From assembly GCF_022539405.1 (NCBI RefSeq), contig NZ_CP054394.1:1992501-2056500 (forward strand): a stretch of DNA of 64,000 bases, given 5' to 3'. Within the stretch, counting starts at the first letter, position 1. Every line of letters starts with the position of its first letter. Of the stretch, positions 3,195-62,760 are shown piece after piece. The translations under genes were made by a program, and so were the position numbers. Under the pieces are notes generated by a model that searched no databases, had not been told where the DNA came from, and was given only the letters and a program-made list of their open reading frames with translations. The stretch is from Natranaerofaba carboxydovora. Its GTDB lineage: Bacteria; Bacillota; Natranaerobiia; Natranaerobiales; Natranaerofabaceae.

Positions 3195-3291
3195 TGGCGG
3201 GAGTATATGGGAATCAAACCCACAGCAGACGGAACTCGCCCGCCAGACGGATTTGAATTCCACGGGGAGCACCCGTTCGCCAACTACTCCA
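3195..3291 (-). tRNA. selC: tRNA-Sec-like gene (anticodon UCA), aberrant structure
   Basis: Read on the minus strand, this stretch ends in a genomically encoded GCCA. It has an anticodon loop ATTCAAA (anticodon TCA at 3254-3256), a long variable arm that pairs as GGCGG/CCGTC, and a T-arm GTGGG/CCCAT. This is the overall plan of bacterial selenocysteine tRNA. Several details are wrong for a healthy selC. The first acceptor pair is T·C and the eighth is G·A. The D-stem has two mismatches in six pairs. The T-loop is TTTGATT instead of TTCGANT. A second match to the acceptor 5' strand (GGGAGT, 3305-3310) lies 19 bases upstream, as if a short segment flanked by GGAGT copies had been inserted. It may be divergent, or a decaying pseudogene. 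Confidence 0.6.
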
Positions 3292-34130: not shown

Positions 34131-34625
34131 TTGAAGAAAATTGCAATTTTAGCAGTATTTGCTCTAGTTCTTGGGCTAACTTCAGGAGCTATGGCAGGAT
34201 ACGCAGATGGTACTTATGAAGGAGAGGCAGAAGGTTTTAATGGCCCTGTTACAGTTGAAGTAACTGTAGAAGGTGGAGAAATTACTGCCATTGACGCTAC
34301 AGGTGACGATGAAACACCAGATTACTGGGAAGATGCTCAAGTTACTGTAGATGACATTATTGCTGCCCAGTCTACTGATGTAGACCTAGAGACTGGAGCA
34401 ACTGGCTCAAGCGAAGGAATAGCTAACGCTGTTGACAACGCACTTGCAGATGCAGAAGCAGAAGAAACCGAAGAAGAGCCTGCTGAAGAGCCTGAAGAAG
34501 AAGTAGACGAAGAAGAGGAAGAAGAAGAACTTCCTGAAACTGGTGGCGGCGTTCTACCAATACTACCTGGTATCGGCGGACTTATTGCTGCTGGTGGAGC
34601 ACTATTAATCGCTAAGAGAAAGTAA
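34131..34625 (+). CDS. LPXTG-anchored FMN-binding domain protein
   Basis: A 164-residue surface protein. Signal peptide residues 1-23 (cut after AMA-G) are followed by a compact FMN_bind domain (residues 24-107) that starts YADGTYEGEAEG and ends in the flavinylation motif TGATGSS, with Thr91 the expected attachment point for FMN via a phosphoester. Residues 108-133 are a Glu-rich stalk. LPETG (134-138), a hydrophobic helix and KRK form a sortase signal. TTG start after AAAGGAGGG. A class D sortase gene begins 39 bases downstream, so it is probably the dedicated anchoring enzyme. FMN attachment needs an ApbE-type transferase, which is not in the window. Likely role: wall-held flavin redox carrier; partner unknown. 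Confidence 0.88.
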   Translation: MKKIAILAVFALVLGLTSGAMAGYADGTYEGEAEGFNGPVTVEVTVEGGEITAIDATGDDETPDYWEDAQVTVDDIIAAQSTDVDLETGATGSSEGIANAVDNALADAEAEETEEEPAEEPEEEVDEEEEEEELPETGGGVLPILPGIGGLIAAGGALLIAKRK

Positions 34626-34664: not shown

Positions 34665-35375
34665 ATGAGTTATAAAAATACAATATCTAAACTACAGGAT
34701 AAAATACAAAATAAAATACGAGTTCGCACCCTAATTGGAATTGTACTTTTGCTGGCCGGAATTTCTCTGGCCAGCTTTCCTTATTTCCATAATATGTATT
34801 ACCAACATATACAAGCAAGCCAGGTTGAACAAAAATTAGCAGAATTCCAGGAGAAAGAAAATCCCTCATTTGTAGCAGAAGATAGAGCCTATGAAAGAAA
34901 TGTAACCCAGGACGTTTATGAAGACAAAGATCAGGAAGAGGAGCAAAGTGATGAAAGATTCGCCAACGAATTAGAACCTGATGATGGCATCCTGGAAATT
35001 CCAGCAATTAATCTACAATTAACAATAGGATATGGGGTAGAGCTCTCTGATTTAGAATCTAGTCCAGGGTTTTATCCAGAAAGCGGAACTCCAGAAACCG
35101 GAAATGTATCTATCGCAGGACACAGAACAACCTATGGTGCACCTTTTAATCAATTAAACGAACTAGACGAAGATGATGATATATACCTTTACTATCAGGA
35201 CAAAAAATATACTTACAAAGTTAGCGAAGTTTTTGACACACACAAGCACGATTGGACAATTATTGAACCTACTTCTGAGCCTGCTTTAACTTTAACAACA
35301 TGTCATCCACCTGGCTCATCTGAGAGACGCCTGATAGTTCGCGCTTATCTAGATGACTCTAAAGATGACTTTTAA
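34665..35375 (+). CDS. Class D sortase
   Basis: A 236-residue membrane-anchored transpeptidase with one N-terminal helix (residues about 21-40), an acidic stalk, then the sortase beta-barrel. Catalytic residues are readable: His153 in IAGHRTTYG, Cys213 in TLTTCHPPG, and an Arg in RRLIVRA (residues 221-222). The TLTTC and absence of extra N-terminal domains suggest class D. The partner is the LPETG flavoprotein directly upstream, with a ribosome site AAAGGGTGA between them; no other LPXTG protein is in the window. This makes a two-gene unit for putting one flavoprotein into the wall. Its 3' end overlaps the convergent hydrolase gene by 17 bases. Confidence 0.88.
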   Translation: MSYKNTISKLQDKIQNKIRVRTLIGIVLLLAGISLASFPYFHNMYYQHIQASQVEQKLAEFQEKENPSFVAEDRAYERNVTQDVYEDKDQEEEQSDERFANELEPDDGILEIPAINLQLTIGYGVELSDLESSPGFYPESGTPETGNVSIAGHRTTYGAPFNQLNELDEDDDIYLYYQDKKYTYKVSEVFDTHKHDWTIIEPTSEPALTLTTCHPPGSSERRLIVRAYLDDSKDDF

Positions 35376-57994: not shown

Positions 57995-60469
57995 CTACTC
58001 TCTATAAACGCCTCTGTTAATTCCATCTACTATAGATGAAATAGTTTTGTTAGATCTCAAAGTAGCTCCAGTCACTGTATCATAATCTTCTACAATCCCG
58101 TCAGCATCGTATAAATCAACTAGTGTAACTCTTATATCTTCCCCTTCCAAATACTCTAGAAGCTGCTCATACTGCTCTGCTACATCGCCTGTTACTCCAT
58201 CGTCATCTACATCGTATTCTTCTCCACCATAGTAGAGATGTCTATAACCCGCATCTGTTACTACATTGTCTTCTAAAGTAAACTGTACATTTACCTGCAT
58301 ATCTCCACCGTCGGAGAATATTCCTCTGTAAGTTCCATCTTCAAAACCTATACCTACAGGTGAATATCCTGCAGCTATTTCATCTTCACTATAGATACCA
58401 CGATTAAGTCCATCCTTAATTGCTGAAAGTGTCTTATTAGCTCTTAGAGTAGCTCCTGTAACTGTATCATAGTCCTCTACTATTCCATCTGCATCATACA
58501 AGTCAGCAAGTTTAGCTCTTACATCTTCACCTTCTAAATGCTCGCCTAACTGCTCATACTGTCTTGCTACATCACCCAATGCTCCATCGTCATCTACGTC
58601 ATACTCTTCTCCACCATAAGCAAGATGTCTGTAGCTAAAGTCAGTTATTACATTGTCTTCTAAAGTAAACTGTACGTTTACCTGCATCTCGCCGCCATCA
58701 TTGAATATACCTCTGTACGTACCATCCTCAAAGCTCATTCCTACAACTGGTGAATACCCTGCGGCAATTTCGTCATCTCTATACAACCCGCGGTTAAGAC
58801 CGTCCTTAAATGCCGAAATTGTTTTGTTAGCTCTTAGGGTAGCGCCGGTAACTGTATCATAGTCTTCTACTATTCCATCCGCGTCATATAGATCTGCTAA
58901 ATTTGTTCTTATATCTTCACCTTCTAAATATTCTAGAAGCTGCTCATACTGCGCCGCTACATCTCCTAATGCTCCATCGTCTTCCTCATCATACTCTTCG
59001 CCGCCATAGGCTAGATGCCTGTAGCCTGCATCGGTTACTACATTATCCTCTAAAGTAAACTGCACATTTACCTGCATCTCGCCGCCGTCTTCAAAGATAC
59101 CTCTATAAGTTCCATCTTCAAAGCTTAGGTTCAGAGGTGAGTATCCTTCTGGCACTCCATTTTCGAACCTATAAGCTCCTCTATTCAAGCCATCAACAAA
59201 AGCTGATATTGTTTTGTTAGCTCTTAGAGTTGCTCCTGTAACTGTATCATAGTCTTCTACTATTCCGTCTGCATCATATAAGTCAGCGATGCTATCTCTA
59301 ATATCTTCACCTTCTAGATACTCTAATAACTGCTCATACTGCTCTGCTACATCGCCTACTGCTCCATCGTCTTCCACATCATATTCTTCGCCACCATAGG
59401 CTAAGTGCCTATAACTTGCATCGGTTACTACATTATCTTCAAGAGTAAACTGCACGTTTACCTGCATCTCGCCTCCATCTGCAAATACTCCTCTGTAAGT
59501 TCCATCTTCAAAGCTTAATCCAGCAGGCGAATATCCTTCAGATATCTCATCATCTCTGTATAGTCCACGGTTAAGACCGTCAACAACTGCTGATAAAGTT
59601 TTGTTAGCTCTTAATGTAGCTCCTGTTACTGAATCATAATCCTCTACTATACCATCTGCATCATATAGATCAGCTACTGCATCCCTTATATCTTCACCTT
59701 CTAGATAGTCTAAAAGCTGCTCATACTGCTCTGCCACATCGCCTGTTACTCCATCATCATCCACGTCATATTCTTCCCCACCATAATACAGATGCCTGTA
59801 ACTTGCATCAGTTACCACATTATCTTCTAAAGTAAACTGTACGTTTACCTGCATATCTCCACCATCAGAGAATATACCTCTATAAGTCCCGTCTTCAAAA
59901 CTTTCTCCTTTAATAGGAGAGTATCCTTCTGGTGCTTCATCTTCAAAGCTATAAGCTCCTCTGTTTAGACCATCAACCATTGCTGACAATGTTTTGTTAG
60001 CCCTTAGAGTAGCTCCGGTTACAGAATCGTAATCTTCTACTATACCGTCCGCATCATATAAGTCAGAAATACCCTCTCTAATATCTTCACCTTCCAAATG
60101 CTCTAAAAGCTGCTCATACTGCTCTGCTACATCGCCTGTTACTCCATCATCTTCAACATCATATTCTTCGCCGCCATAGGCTAGATGCCTGTAGCTTGCA
60201 TCTGTTACTACATTGTCCTCCAAAGTAAACTGTACGTTTACCTGCATCTCTCCGCCGTCTTCAAAGATACCTCTATAAGTTCCATCTTCAAAGCTCTTGT
60301 TCTCAATTGCTTGCCAATCTAACATATCCTCTTCTACCGCTTCTTCTGGCAGCTCTTCTTTTTCTTCTTCCTTTTCTTCATCAATATCAATGTCATCAGG
60401 TTCACAACCAACAATAAAAGTAGCTGCGACTAATACAGCTAGCAAAATAAGTATTCCTTTTTTAAACAA
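57995..60469 (-). CDS. Lipoprotein with six tandem FMN_bind domains
   Basis: An 824-residue extracellular protein. The signal ends in the lipobox FIVGC (Cys22), then comes an acidic linker, then six near-identical FMN_bind repeats of about 130 residues, starting near residues 59, 190, 319, 449, 579 and 708. Each begins FEDGTYRG and ends in DGLNRG (DGINRG in the last), and each carries one flavinylation motif VTGATLR; predicted FMN threonines are 154, 285, 414, 544, 674 and 803. Up to six covalent flavins are expected. Known pattern: ApbE attaches FMN to the Thr of such motifs, as in PplA, NqrC and RnfG. TTG start after AAGGGGGG. No apbE is in the window. Role probably surface electron transfer or redox buffering; partner not visible. 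Confidence 0.9.
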   Translation of the reverse strand: MFKKGILILLAVLVAATFIVGCEPDDIDIDEEKEEEKEELPEEAVEEDMLDWQAIENKSFEDGTYRGIFEDGGEMQVNVQFTLEDNVVTDASYRHLAYGGEEYDVEDDGVTGDVAEQYEQLLEHLEGEDIREGISDLYDADGIVEDYDSVTGATLRANKTLSAMVDGLNRGAYSFEDEAPEGYSPIKGESFEDGTYRGIFSDGGDMQVNVQFTLEDNVVTDASYRHLYYGGEEYDVDDDGVTGDVAEQYEQLLDYLEGEDIRDAVADLYDADGIVEDYDSVTGATLRANKTLSAVVDGLNRGLYRDDEISEGYSPAGLSFEDGTYRGVFADGGEMQVNVQFTLEDNVVTDASYRHLAYGGEEYDVEDDGAVGDVAEQYEQLLEYLEGEDIRDSIADLYDADGIVEDYDTVTGATLRANKTISAFVDGLNRGAYRFENGVPEGYSPLNLSFEDGTYRGIFEDGGEMQVNVQFTLEDNVVTDAGYRHLAYGGEEYDEEDDGALGDVAAQYEQLLEYLEGEDIRTNLADLYDADGIVEDYDTVTGATLRANKTISAFKDGLNRGLYRDDEIAAGYSPVVGMSFEDGTYRGIFNDGGEMQVNVQFTLEDNVITDFSYRHLAYGGEEYDVDDDGALGDVARQYEQLGEHLEGEDVRAKLADLYDADGIVEDYDTVTGATLRANKTLSAIKDGLNRGIYSEDEIAAGYSPVGIGFEDGTYRGIFSDGGDMQVNVQFTLEDNVVTDAGYRHLYYGGEEYDVDDDGVTGDVAEQYEQLLEYLEGEDIRVTLVDLYDADGIVEDYDTVTGATLRSNKTISSIVDGINRGVYRE

Positions 60470-60680: not shown

Positions 60681-60721
60681 AAAAAGGACAAATGTCCTTA
60701 GTGTGTAGGTACATTTGTCCT
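60681..60721 (-). terminator. Terminator of two-component system
   Basis: On the minus strand, AGGACAAATGT (60711-60721) pairs perfectly with ACATTTGTCCT (60685-60695), then TTTTTG follows. It overlaps the response-regulator stop codon. The rest of 60470-60680 is the leader of the six-repeat flavoprotein gene; no other element was recognised there. Confidence 0.8.
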
Positions 60722-61370
60722 AGTCAGAATCTAAACTTCTACTACGAACCCAGTAGCTAGCAGCTTCTGTCCTGTTAGAAACATTAAGTTTTCTTAAAAT
60801 GCTGCTCACATAGTTTCGAACCGTTTTGTCCGAGATGTCTAGTGCCTCTCCTATTTCTTTATTGGCTTTACCTACACTAATCATTTGTAATATTTCAACT
60901 TCTTTCGGACTTAACTTACTGCTTATTCGATTCTTGACATCTTTTGTTTTCAAATCGTTTATGACATTTTTCGTAACTGAGGGATCTAGTACAACTTTTC
61001 CTTCTTGTACCTGCTTTATTGTTTTTATTAACTCGTCACTATCGATATTCTTAAGTAAATAGCCCTCTGCACCAGCTTTAATGGTCTCTGTAACAATATG
61101 CCTGTCAGCATATGCTGTTAATATTATGACTTTAATCTCAGGAAACATTTTCTTAATATTACCGCAGCCTATTATTCCATCTGCATCCGGTAGTTTAAAG
61201 TCAAGTAGTATTACATCGGGGGCATTTTCTTCAATAGAGCCCATAGCTTCGTTTAATGTCCCCACTTCCCCACAGACTTCAATAGAATCATCTAGGTCTA
61301 GTATTAACTTCAAACCGTTTCTAACTATGCCGTGGTCTTCAACTAACAATACTTTTGTTGAGTTCTTCAT
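60720..61370 (-). CDS. NarL/LuxR-type response regulator
   Basis: A 216-residue DNA-binding regulator. Receiver domain residues 1-120 show VLLVEDHG, the phospho-acceptor Asp in VILLDFKLPDADG near 56, and a Lys in LLKNID near 106. The C-terminal LuxR helix-turn-helix (KLSPKEVEILQMISVGKANKEIGEALDIS near 150-178, DKTVRNYVSSILRKL) follows. It starts 32 bases inside the sensor gene, so the two are translationally coupled and form a LiaS/NarX-type two-component system. ATG start after GGGAGGG. The target could be the adjacent six-repeat flavoprotein gene, but no binding site was recognised, so this is only a positional guess. Confidence 0.9.
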   Translation of the reverse strand: MKNSTKVLLVEDHGIVRNGLKLILDLDDSIEVCGEVGTLNEAMGSIEENAPDVILLDFKLPDADGIIGCGNIKKMFPEIKVIILTAYADRHIVTETIKAGAEGYLLKNIDSDELIKTIKQVQEGKVVLDPSVTKNVINDLKTKDVKNRISSKLSPKEVEILQMISVGKANKEIGEALDISDKTVRNYVSSILRKLNVSNRTEAASYWVRSRSLDSD

Positions 61371-62760
61371 CCTCTGTTCCCTCCCAGGGTATTACTGTTT
61401 CTACCATTGTTCCATTTTGCAATCTTTTTATTTTAAAAGAACCTTCAGCTCTTTCTGCCCTTTCCCTCATGGATCTTATGCCAAGCTGTTTATTTTTATG
61501 CAAATCATCCTTAGATATCCCGATACCATTATCAGTTACTCTAACTAATAGATAGTCATAATTACTGTACATGAAAACTTCAGCTTTAGTAGCCTTAGAA
61601 TGTTTCAACACATTACTAATAGCTTCCTGCACAATATAGTAGACTTGTGTTGATTTTTCCGGTGATAATTGCCCTAGAGTGTAAGAGGGCATTTCGCTTT
61701 TCAAACTTATATCCATATCATGACTATTATTAAACTCATCCACTAACTTCTGTAGATTACTCTGCAAATCTTCAAACTCAACGGTTTGGGTAGCTGTGGA
61801 TTCTAGAAACTCCCTTGTTTTATCAACAGCGCTGTTCAAGTCAGCCTTAACTTCCTTTAATAGTTCATCTGCTTTCTCCCCGGTTTTATTTTTCATGATA
61901 TACTCAACTTTTAACCCTGCTGAATAAAGGACTTGAATAATACTGTCATGAATCTCCATTCCCAACTTTCTTCTTTCTTCGCTGATAGTTCTTTGCTTTT
62001 GTAACAAGTTGAGTTTTTCTTTCTGCTCCCAGCTAAAGGTTTCTATCACCTTAACTAACAAAATATTAATCCCTATACCTGTGGCAATTTTGCCTACCTG
62101 GATAGGAAATCTAAAAATATTTTCAAACAAGTCGTTGTTAATAACATTTGCGGGGAAAAAGTTATCAGGGCTAACAAAGAGACCATCTATAATTCCATAG
62201 ATTAATATAATAACAGCTAACTTTTTATATTTACTTGCTATCTTACCAAGCTTTCTCTTCTCCATCAAATTTCCGTTCAAATATAAAGCTAGAGCGGAGC
62301 TAATACCCCCCAGAAAACTTAAAATATACCGCAGGAAAATTGTATTGTATTCGGGGTGAATAATATGGTAATCAAAACTGTAGTAGCTCATTAAAAAAAT
62401 AAATCCACCAAACCAGCTTGCTAGTAGAATAAAAGGTATTTTGTTAGTCCATTTTTTTAACTTTTCCTTCAAAGGTAACAAGATAAAACCAAAATACATT
62501 AAAAATGCAAAAGAAACAGCTTTTAGTACTTGTTTAATAATAAAAATTGTTGTGTAGGAATCAGGGTATAAGTCAGCAATTACAACCATAGTAACCCATT
62601 CAGAAAGCCCGTGGGCAATGCCAAATATCCCTAAATATTTCATGGCTTTCACTAACTGAAAATTGCTCACTTTTACATCTTTTCTTTGTATGGCAAACAA
62701 TCCCATAGTAATAAATACACTACCATATATTAAATATAAAAAGAAATATTCCTCTGGCAT
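61339..62760 (-). CDS. Membrane sensor histidine kinase (HisKA_3)
   Basis: A 473-residue sensor with seven or eight hydrophobic helices in the first 240 residues, no long external domain, then a coiled linker and HisKA_3 dimerisation helix RRKLGMEIHDSIIQVLYSAGL (phospho-His near residue 272), followed by an HATPase domain with QEAISNVLKHS and TDNGIGIS. Such many-helix sensors detect signals in or near the membrane. It is coupled to the response regulator gene by a 32-base overlap. The ATG follows ATAAGGAGA. Lying two genes from the six-repeat flavoprotein, it might sense redox or envelope state, but nothing in the sequence shows it directly. Confidence 0.88.
   Translation of the reverse strand: MPEEYFFLYLIYGSVFITMGLFAIQRKDVKVSNFQLVKAMKYLGIFGIAHGLSEWVTMVVIADLYPDSYTTIFIIKQVLKAVSFAFLMYFGFILLPLKEKLKKWTNKIPFILLASWFGGFIFLMSYYSFDYHIIHPEYNTIFLRYILSFLGGISSALALYLNGNLMEKRKLGKIASKYKKLAVIILIYGIIDGLFVSPDNFFPANVINNDLFENIFRFPIQVGKIATGIGINILLVKVIETFSWEQKEKLNLLQKQRTISEERRKLGMEIHDSIIQVLYSAGLKVEYIMKNKTGEKADELLKEVKADLNSAVDKTREFLESTATQTVEFEDLQSNLQKLVDEFNNSHDMDISLKSEMPSYTLGQLSPEKSTQVYYIVQEAISNVLKHSKATKAEVFMYSNYDYLLVRVTDNGIGISKDDLHKNKQLGIRSMRERAERAEGSFKIKRLQNGTMVETVIPWEGTEDEELNKSIVS

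Follow-up and report, generated by a model that had tools for sequence, protein, structure and literature searches.

Multi-flavinylated FMN_bind proteins, of which 2081 multi-domain examples with up to 13 sites have been reported (PMC8238504), are secreted proteins in which tandem, near-identical domains bearing the ApbE motif are joined by flexible linkers (Meheust et al. 2021; SaFMN3 and CbFMN4, Tong et al. 2023), and they are commonest in Gram-positives (Meheust et al. 2021; Tong et al. 2023). The flavinylation motif has been defined as D-x-x-[ST]-G-A-[ST] (PMC12052999), and the FMN-bind1 type, exemplified by 3O6U, has a core of about 120 residues (PMC11334425). Titration of SaFMN3, which carries three FMN, gives a single potential of −184 mV, and the authors of that work take this to mean that there is no directionality (PMC10339131). 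Published surveys put forward multi-flavin proteins as functional counterparts of multi-heme cytochromes, while calling their role generally unclear.

The lipoprotein described here is encoded in a 64,000-nucleotide stretch of DNA, referred to below as the window. Its several FMN_bind domains and its lipobox, which marks it for a place outside the cytosol, make it a new member of the described class (PMC8238504, PMC11334425), with which it shares secretion, tandem near-identical domains, the ApbE motif and flexible linkers. It differs in that its domain, present six times, is longer and strongly acidic, and in lying at an orphan locus that lacks an apbE of its own and is linked to a two-component system. 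A preliminary description of this DNA had considered six tandem domains to exceed the known examples, a view at odds with the 13 sites already published. That description also overlooked the adjacent two-component system, the strongest pointer to the function of the protein. We put at roughly 70% the probability that the protein is an ApbE-flavinylated, membrane-tethered electron carrier switched by this adjoining system.

A lipoprotein with six FMN_bind domains

The 824-residue reading frame is preceded by a Shine-Dalgarno stretch, GGGGGG (Table 1). An acidic tail extends from Cys22 to about residue 59 and is followed by six 114-residue repeats (residues 60–173, 191–304, 320–433, 450–563, 580–693 and 709–822), separated by linkers of 15–17 residues. 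Scanned for copy number, PF04205 (FMN_bind) matches the protein in six stretches (E = 1.9e-14; 54.5 bits against a curated cut-off of 22), and DYD[ST]VTGAT, which contains the full D-x-x-[ST]-G-A-T flavinylation motif, occurs in six of six repeats. The initial reading of one lipoprotein with six FMN_bind repeats, each with a TGAT, is thereby confirmed. Given the intact motifs, the lipoprotein signal and the presence of apbE in the genome, covalent FMN at the six sites is very likely. It is extremely improbable that the domains go unflavinylated and play a structural role: altered motifs (TAAT, SAAT or AGAT replacing TGAT) do occur in some single-domain paralogues, but all six motifs are canonical here, and in the family alignment every complete motif retains its final Thr/Ser, including those without the Gly.

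Table 1. Features of the six-flavin locus and of a second FMN_bind locus (window positions)
Feature	Position	Strand	Detail
Single-domain FMN_bind protein	34131..34625	+	LPETG wall anchor; intact flavinylation motif
Sortase	34665..35375	+	directly after the LPETG FMN_bind gene
Six-domain FMN_bind lipoprotein	57995..60469	-	824 aa; TTG start; pI about 4.05
Domain 6	58004..58345	-	predicted FMN-Thr803
Domain 5	58391..58732	-	predicted FMN-Thr674
Domain 4	58781..59122	-	predicted FMN-Thr544; AlphaFold model pLDDT 93, pTM 0.85
Domain 3	59171..59512	-	predicted FMN-Thr414
Domain 2	59558..59899	-	predicted FMN-Thr285
Domain 1	59951..60292	-	motif DYDSVTGAT; predicted FMN-Thr154
Lipoprotein signal peptide	60404..60469	-	lipid-attachment Cys22 (lipobox FIVGC), from sequence
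Predicted operator	60686..60697	.	GGACAAATGTCC; only exact GGACAWWTGTCC in the 3.26-Mb genome; before the six-flavin gene
Second predicted operator	60709..60720	.	GTACATTTGTCC; one mismatch; 23 bp from the first
NarL/LuxR-type response regulator	60720..61370	-
HisKA_3 sensor kinase	61339..62760	-	multi-pass N-terminal membrane sensor, about aa 1–255

Age, fold and arrangement of the domains

The six repeats are 82–90% identical in protein sequence (mean 86%) but only 77–85% identical in DNA, with a mean dS of 1.25, a mean dN of 0.095 and synonymous sites near saturation. The little sequence drift noted in the preliminary description thus holds for the protein and fails for the DNA. The high dS and low dN show that the repeats are old copies whose likeness comes from purifying selection; recent duplication or gene conversion as its source was ruled out by the dS of about 1.2. 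A tree of 52 related domains unites the six in a single clade (support 100/99), which points to an expansion, or an old homogenisation, specific to the lineage. Relatives mostly have one or three domains, with one two-domain paralogue.

Relative to the PF04205 core the domain has about 35 additional residues, and single domains therefore match the Pfam model weakly: member 1 of the alignment on its own gives no match, and 38 of the 48 family members do match. PF04205 alone was dropped for counting copies per genome, the raw genome search having overlooked the six-domain gene. The core of the FMN-bind1 type fits the size of the longer domain. The AlphaFold model of domain 4 is confident and shows three strands followed by three helices. 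A Foldseek search with the domain model placed 3o6u, 8p2a (SaFMN3-D2), 2kzx and 8p2b among the best matches, but these are weak, with E values of 0.03–0.1 and none below 0.001. Sequence searches of the PDB with the full protein and with a six-domain profile yielded nothing useful, and a 48-member profile yielded sub-threshold matches only, to FMN4 domain 1 and 2kzx. The full-length model is poor (pLDDT 59, pTM 0.40), with low-confidence linkers, and for this reason flavin-flavin distances from it were abandoned.

These properties bear on how electrons might move along the chain, which the preliminary description had pictured as a possible surface flavin wire. An extracytosolic electron-transfer role finds genetic support in the neighbours and relatives described below; the near-identical domains speak against a directional wire. 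As an ordered hopping path through the envelope, six FMN on one chain would be in line with a suggestion made in print for multi-flavinylated proteins generally (PMC8238504), yet domains so alike are unlikely to differ in potential, SaFMN3 has a single potential, and the linkers are long and of low model confidence. We therefore regard an ordered path as unlikely, although diffusive hopping between beads is possible. The near-identity of the domains, the single potential of SaFMN3 and the low-confidence linkers fit a string of equivalent carriers passing electrons by contact, or a store. A protein that mainly buffers up to 12 electrons by the membrane, or scavenges oxygen, instead of relaying electrons, would also have near-identical domains, and oxygen does react with reduced SaFMN3 (PMC10339131). 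However, multi-heme cytochromes and reductases share its predicted regulation, which speaks for a respiratory path, and we consider storage as the main function improbable.

The domain has relatives in soda-lake metagenomes, Halomonas, Spirochaetota and Clostridia, and 15 of 398 sampled Bacillota genomes have matches to the family at E ≤ 0.001, about half to two thirds of them strong. Judging from the acidic proteins and the soda-lake relatives, the organism is probably salt- and alkali-loving. Several family members (L021, L024–L028, L045 and L047) carry TAAT, SAAT, AGAT or TAAS for TGAT. The two-domain paralogue (L063, 6884–7843) is without a lipobox, has IstA/IstB-like (IS21-type) transposase genes directly upstream, and was probably shortened by insertion. 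At L103 (5475–6610), two adjoining single-domain genes form a tandem pair that may represent a first step to multi-domain forms.

Flavinylation machinery and candidate electron donors

The genome encodes one ApbE (E = 8.3e-77), so that the homologue on whose presence the preliminary description had made its reading depend does exist. Its gene lies in a cluster ordered rnfCDGEAB - mnh - apbE - PF07456, in which RnfG is two-domain and mnh is an Mnh-type antiporter cluster. PF07456 is the family to which EetB belongs, the subunit for FAD export that Listeria requires for flavinylation (PMC9973259), and a NusG_II (EetA-like) gene is present away from the six-domain locus. EetB-like and NusG_II/EetA-like genes occur elsewhere in the genome, but no eet cluster (ndh2, eetA, eetB, dmk, fmnA, fmnB) surrounds the six-domain gene. 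The likeness to extracellular electron transfer by PplA in Listeria lies in a flavinylated (here predicted) lipoprotein and in a genome that encodes both ApbE and an EetB-family protein; the absent cluster sets the two apart.

Many FMN_bind proteins are encoded in this genome. The single-domain protein with an LPETG wall anchor (Table 1) is possibly a later step of the same path as the six-domain lipoprotein. A search of the genome for a ferric-reductase-type donor found none; apart from RNF, no classical flavinylated donor complex was seen, and RNF is the best candidate for the membrane donor. The absence of a transmembrane donor gene at the six-flavin locus counts against the carrier reading. 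Under that reading, the lipoprotein would be anchored at the outer face of the cell membrane, and each of its six flexibly linked, near-identical domains would receive one FMN from the sole ApbE of the cell. The resulting high-capacity tethered carrier would take electrons from a membrane donor, perhaps RNF, and deliver them to acceptors in or beyond the wall.

The genome has a second multi-flavin lipoprotein, of 588 residues (L069, 4684–6450; C1:2300683–2302449), with five flavinylation-type motifs and domains of the ordinary FMN_bind type. Elsewhere, related domains are tied to known electron donors, in keeping with the carrier reading. At L105, one is encoded inside an rnf operon. A Halomonas gene (L037, 6157–8348) fuses cytochrome b5 to a related FMN domain and overlaps a Ferric_reduct/FAD/NAD flavocytochrome gene, and this pair may form a two-gene electron path from NAD(P)H to the periplasm. 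The window also contains a tRNA-Sec gene (3199–3290), which makes it probable that the organism produces selenoproteins.

A two-component system adjoins the six-flavin gene

A sensor kinase and a response regulator lie upstream of the six-flavin gene on the same strand; its other neighbours are CapA-like and TRAP genes. No Pfam or NCBIfam model matches the membrane sensor of the kinase. The pair resembles NarX/NarQ-NarL in its HisKA_3 kinase core, in its NarL-like regulator (both from the best NCBIfam stretches) and in its association with respiratory gene control. It differs in scoring far under the NCBIfam cut-offs (102.7 bits against 578 for NarX; 151.3 bits against 250 for NarL), in its different, unnamed membrane sensor and in the palindrome GGACAWWTGTCC.

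Three-domain FMN_bind genes of two other families also have the kinase-regulator pair at their side, at L099 in identical gene order, and at L100. In G001 and G002, the closest relatives within the order, no kinase lies beside the three-domain genes, which counts against the carrier reading with its switch. A search with the sensor region alone gave matches in 59 of the 398 Bacillota genomes. The five closest kinases, the present one included, all adjoin predicted flavoproteins: the six-FMN protein, three-FMN proteins twice, an FMN_bind protein with a fumarate-reductase-like flavoprotein, and a GAT-motif protein with apbE. Across Bacillota loci, an FMN_bind or multi-heme gene lies within about 5 kb of the sensor kinase in 18 of 40 cases, compared with 1 of 40 controls (Fisher p = 8e-6; the controls, drawn from the same genomes, were HisKA_3 kinases lacking the sensor); two loci found via their FMN gene are excluded from this count, and some of the 40 share a genus and are not fully independent.

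The close linkage between kinase, regulator and flavin lipoprotein, seen in three families, would also be expected if the lipoprotein reported the redox state of the envelope to the adjoining kinase and were not itself the main carrier. The same kinase type, however, stands beside large multi-heme cytochromes, which are likelier to be targets than sensors, and the palindrome precedes carrier genes, making a sensing partner very unlikely. We favour the carrier reading, in which the kinase and the NarL-type regulator would respond to a redox-related signal and cause the lipoprotein to be made, the regulator binding the GGACAWWTGTCC sites ahead of its gene.

A palindrome at flavin-protein and multi-heme loci

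The palindrome GGACAWWTGTCC was found from the gaps preceding flavin genes, and the two copies at the six-flavin gene (Table 1) are paralleled by pairs about 20–23 bp apart at L099, L100 and L159. Among 43 sensor-kinase loci, 6 have an exact copy, against none of 40 control loci. No other of the 1024 palindromes of the form scores as high, but the test is partly circular because three of the loci tested are those in which the motif was noticed. As a cleaner test, a whole-genome search of 19 genomes for exact AAA/TTT-core sites placed 8 of 12 within 3 kb of a sensor kinase, where 0.36% was expected. These eight lie in the present genome and in G002, G208, G075, G110, G170, G080 and G115, and the G080 and G115 sites fall in regions previously unexamined. 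At the level of one mismatch, genome-wide sites show no enrichment (16 versus 18 in the control). One such site in the present genome precedes an FMN-domain paralogue (L221) by about 315 bp.

The upstream palindrome might be nothing but the terminator of the regulator gene, and the neighbourhood a matter of chance. The first site directly follows the regulator gene and also scored as a weak terminator-like stem, and several other copies follow a regulator gene too. Copies away from the 3′ side of a regulator nevertheless precede a three-FMN gene (L100), a flavoprotein (L138), a multi-heme cytochrome (L145) and, as one of the remaining AAA/TTT-core sites, a formate-dehydrogenase-like operon (L255), which argues against a terminator as the sole role. 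Together with the genome-wide specificity of the palindrome, this leaves the chance explanation with very little probability.

Bacillota multi-heme cytochromes in other genomes share the sensor-kinase neighbourhood and the palindrome with the six-flavin protein (L142, L145, L159 and L249), although they carry heme in place of covalent flavin and have no sequence relation to it. A like kinase and site thus stand beside multi-heme cytochromes or fumarate-reductase-like flavoproteins in other Bacillota, and flavins here would take the place of hemes. We judge it on balance likely that this two-component family, hitherto undescribed, with its unnamed membrane sensor and predicted operator GGACAWWTGTCC, is a general Bacillota switch for extracytosolic electron transfer, controlling interchangeable carriers (multi-heme cytochromes, multi-flavin lipoproteins and flavin reductases), and that its target grew to six flavins per chain in the present lineage.

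Within the open-licence literature we found neither a link between two-component systems and flavinylation ("histidine kinase" is absent from the main papers) nor a sensor-kinase family and palindrome shared by multi-flavin proteins and multi-heme cytochromes. The neighbourhoods of this sensor-kinase family suggest one switch for two interchangeable kinds of extracellular electron carrier. The occurrence of both kinds beside one sensor-kinase family and one palindrome provides independent evidence that they do equivalent work, and the regulator with its predicted site offers a handle for finding the carriers' partners and the conditions of their expression.

Other genes beside the sensor kinase

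A gene for a small membrane protein, DoxX-like by sequence appearance, often adjoins the regulator (L168, L169, L173, L174, L177 and L145), and several of these loci are without FMN or multi-heme genes. Secreted proteins of the form EGxxVGYSWxGEA adjoin the same kinase type at L155 (2117–3199), L139 (3036–4130) and L156 (2909–3688). Those of L155 and L139, which scanned without a Pfam or NCBIfam match, have a flavinylation-like GAT motif near the C terminus, and the three proteins may represent an unrecognised flavinylation substrate.
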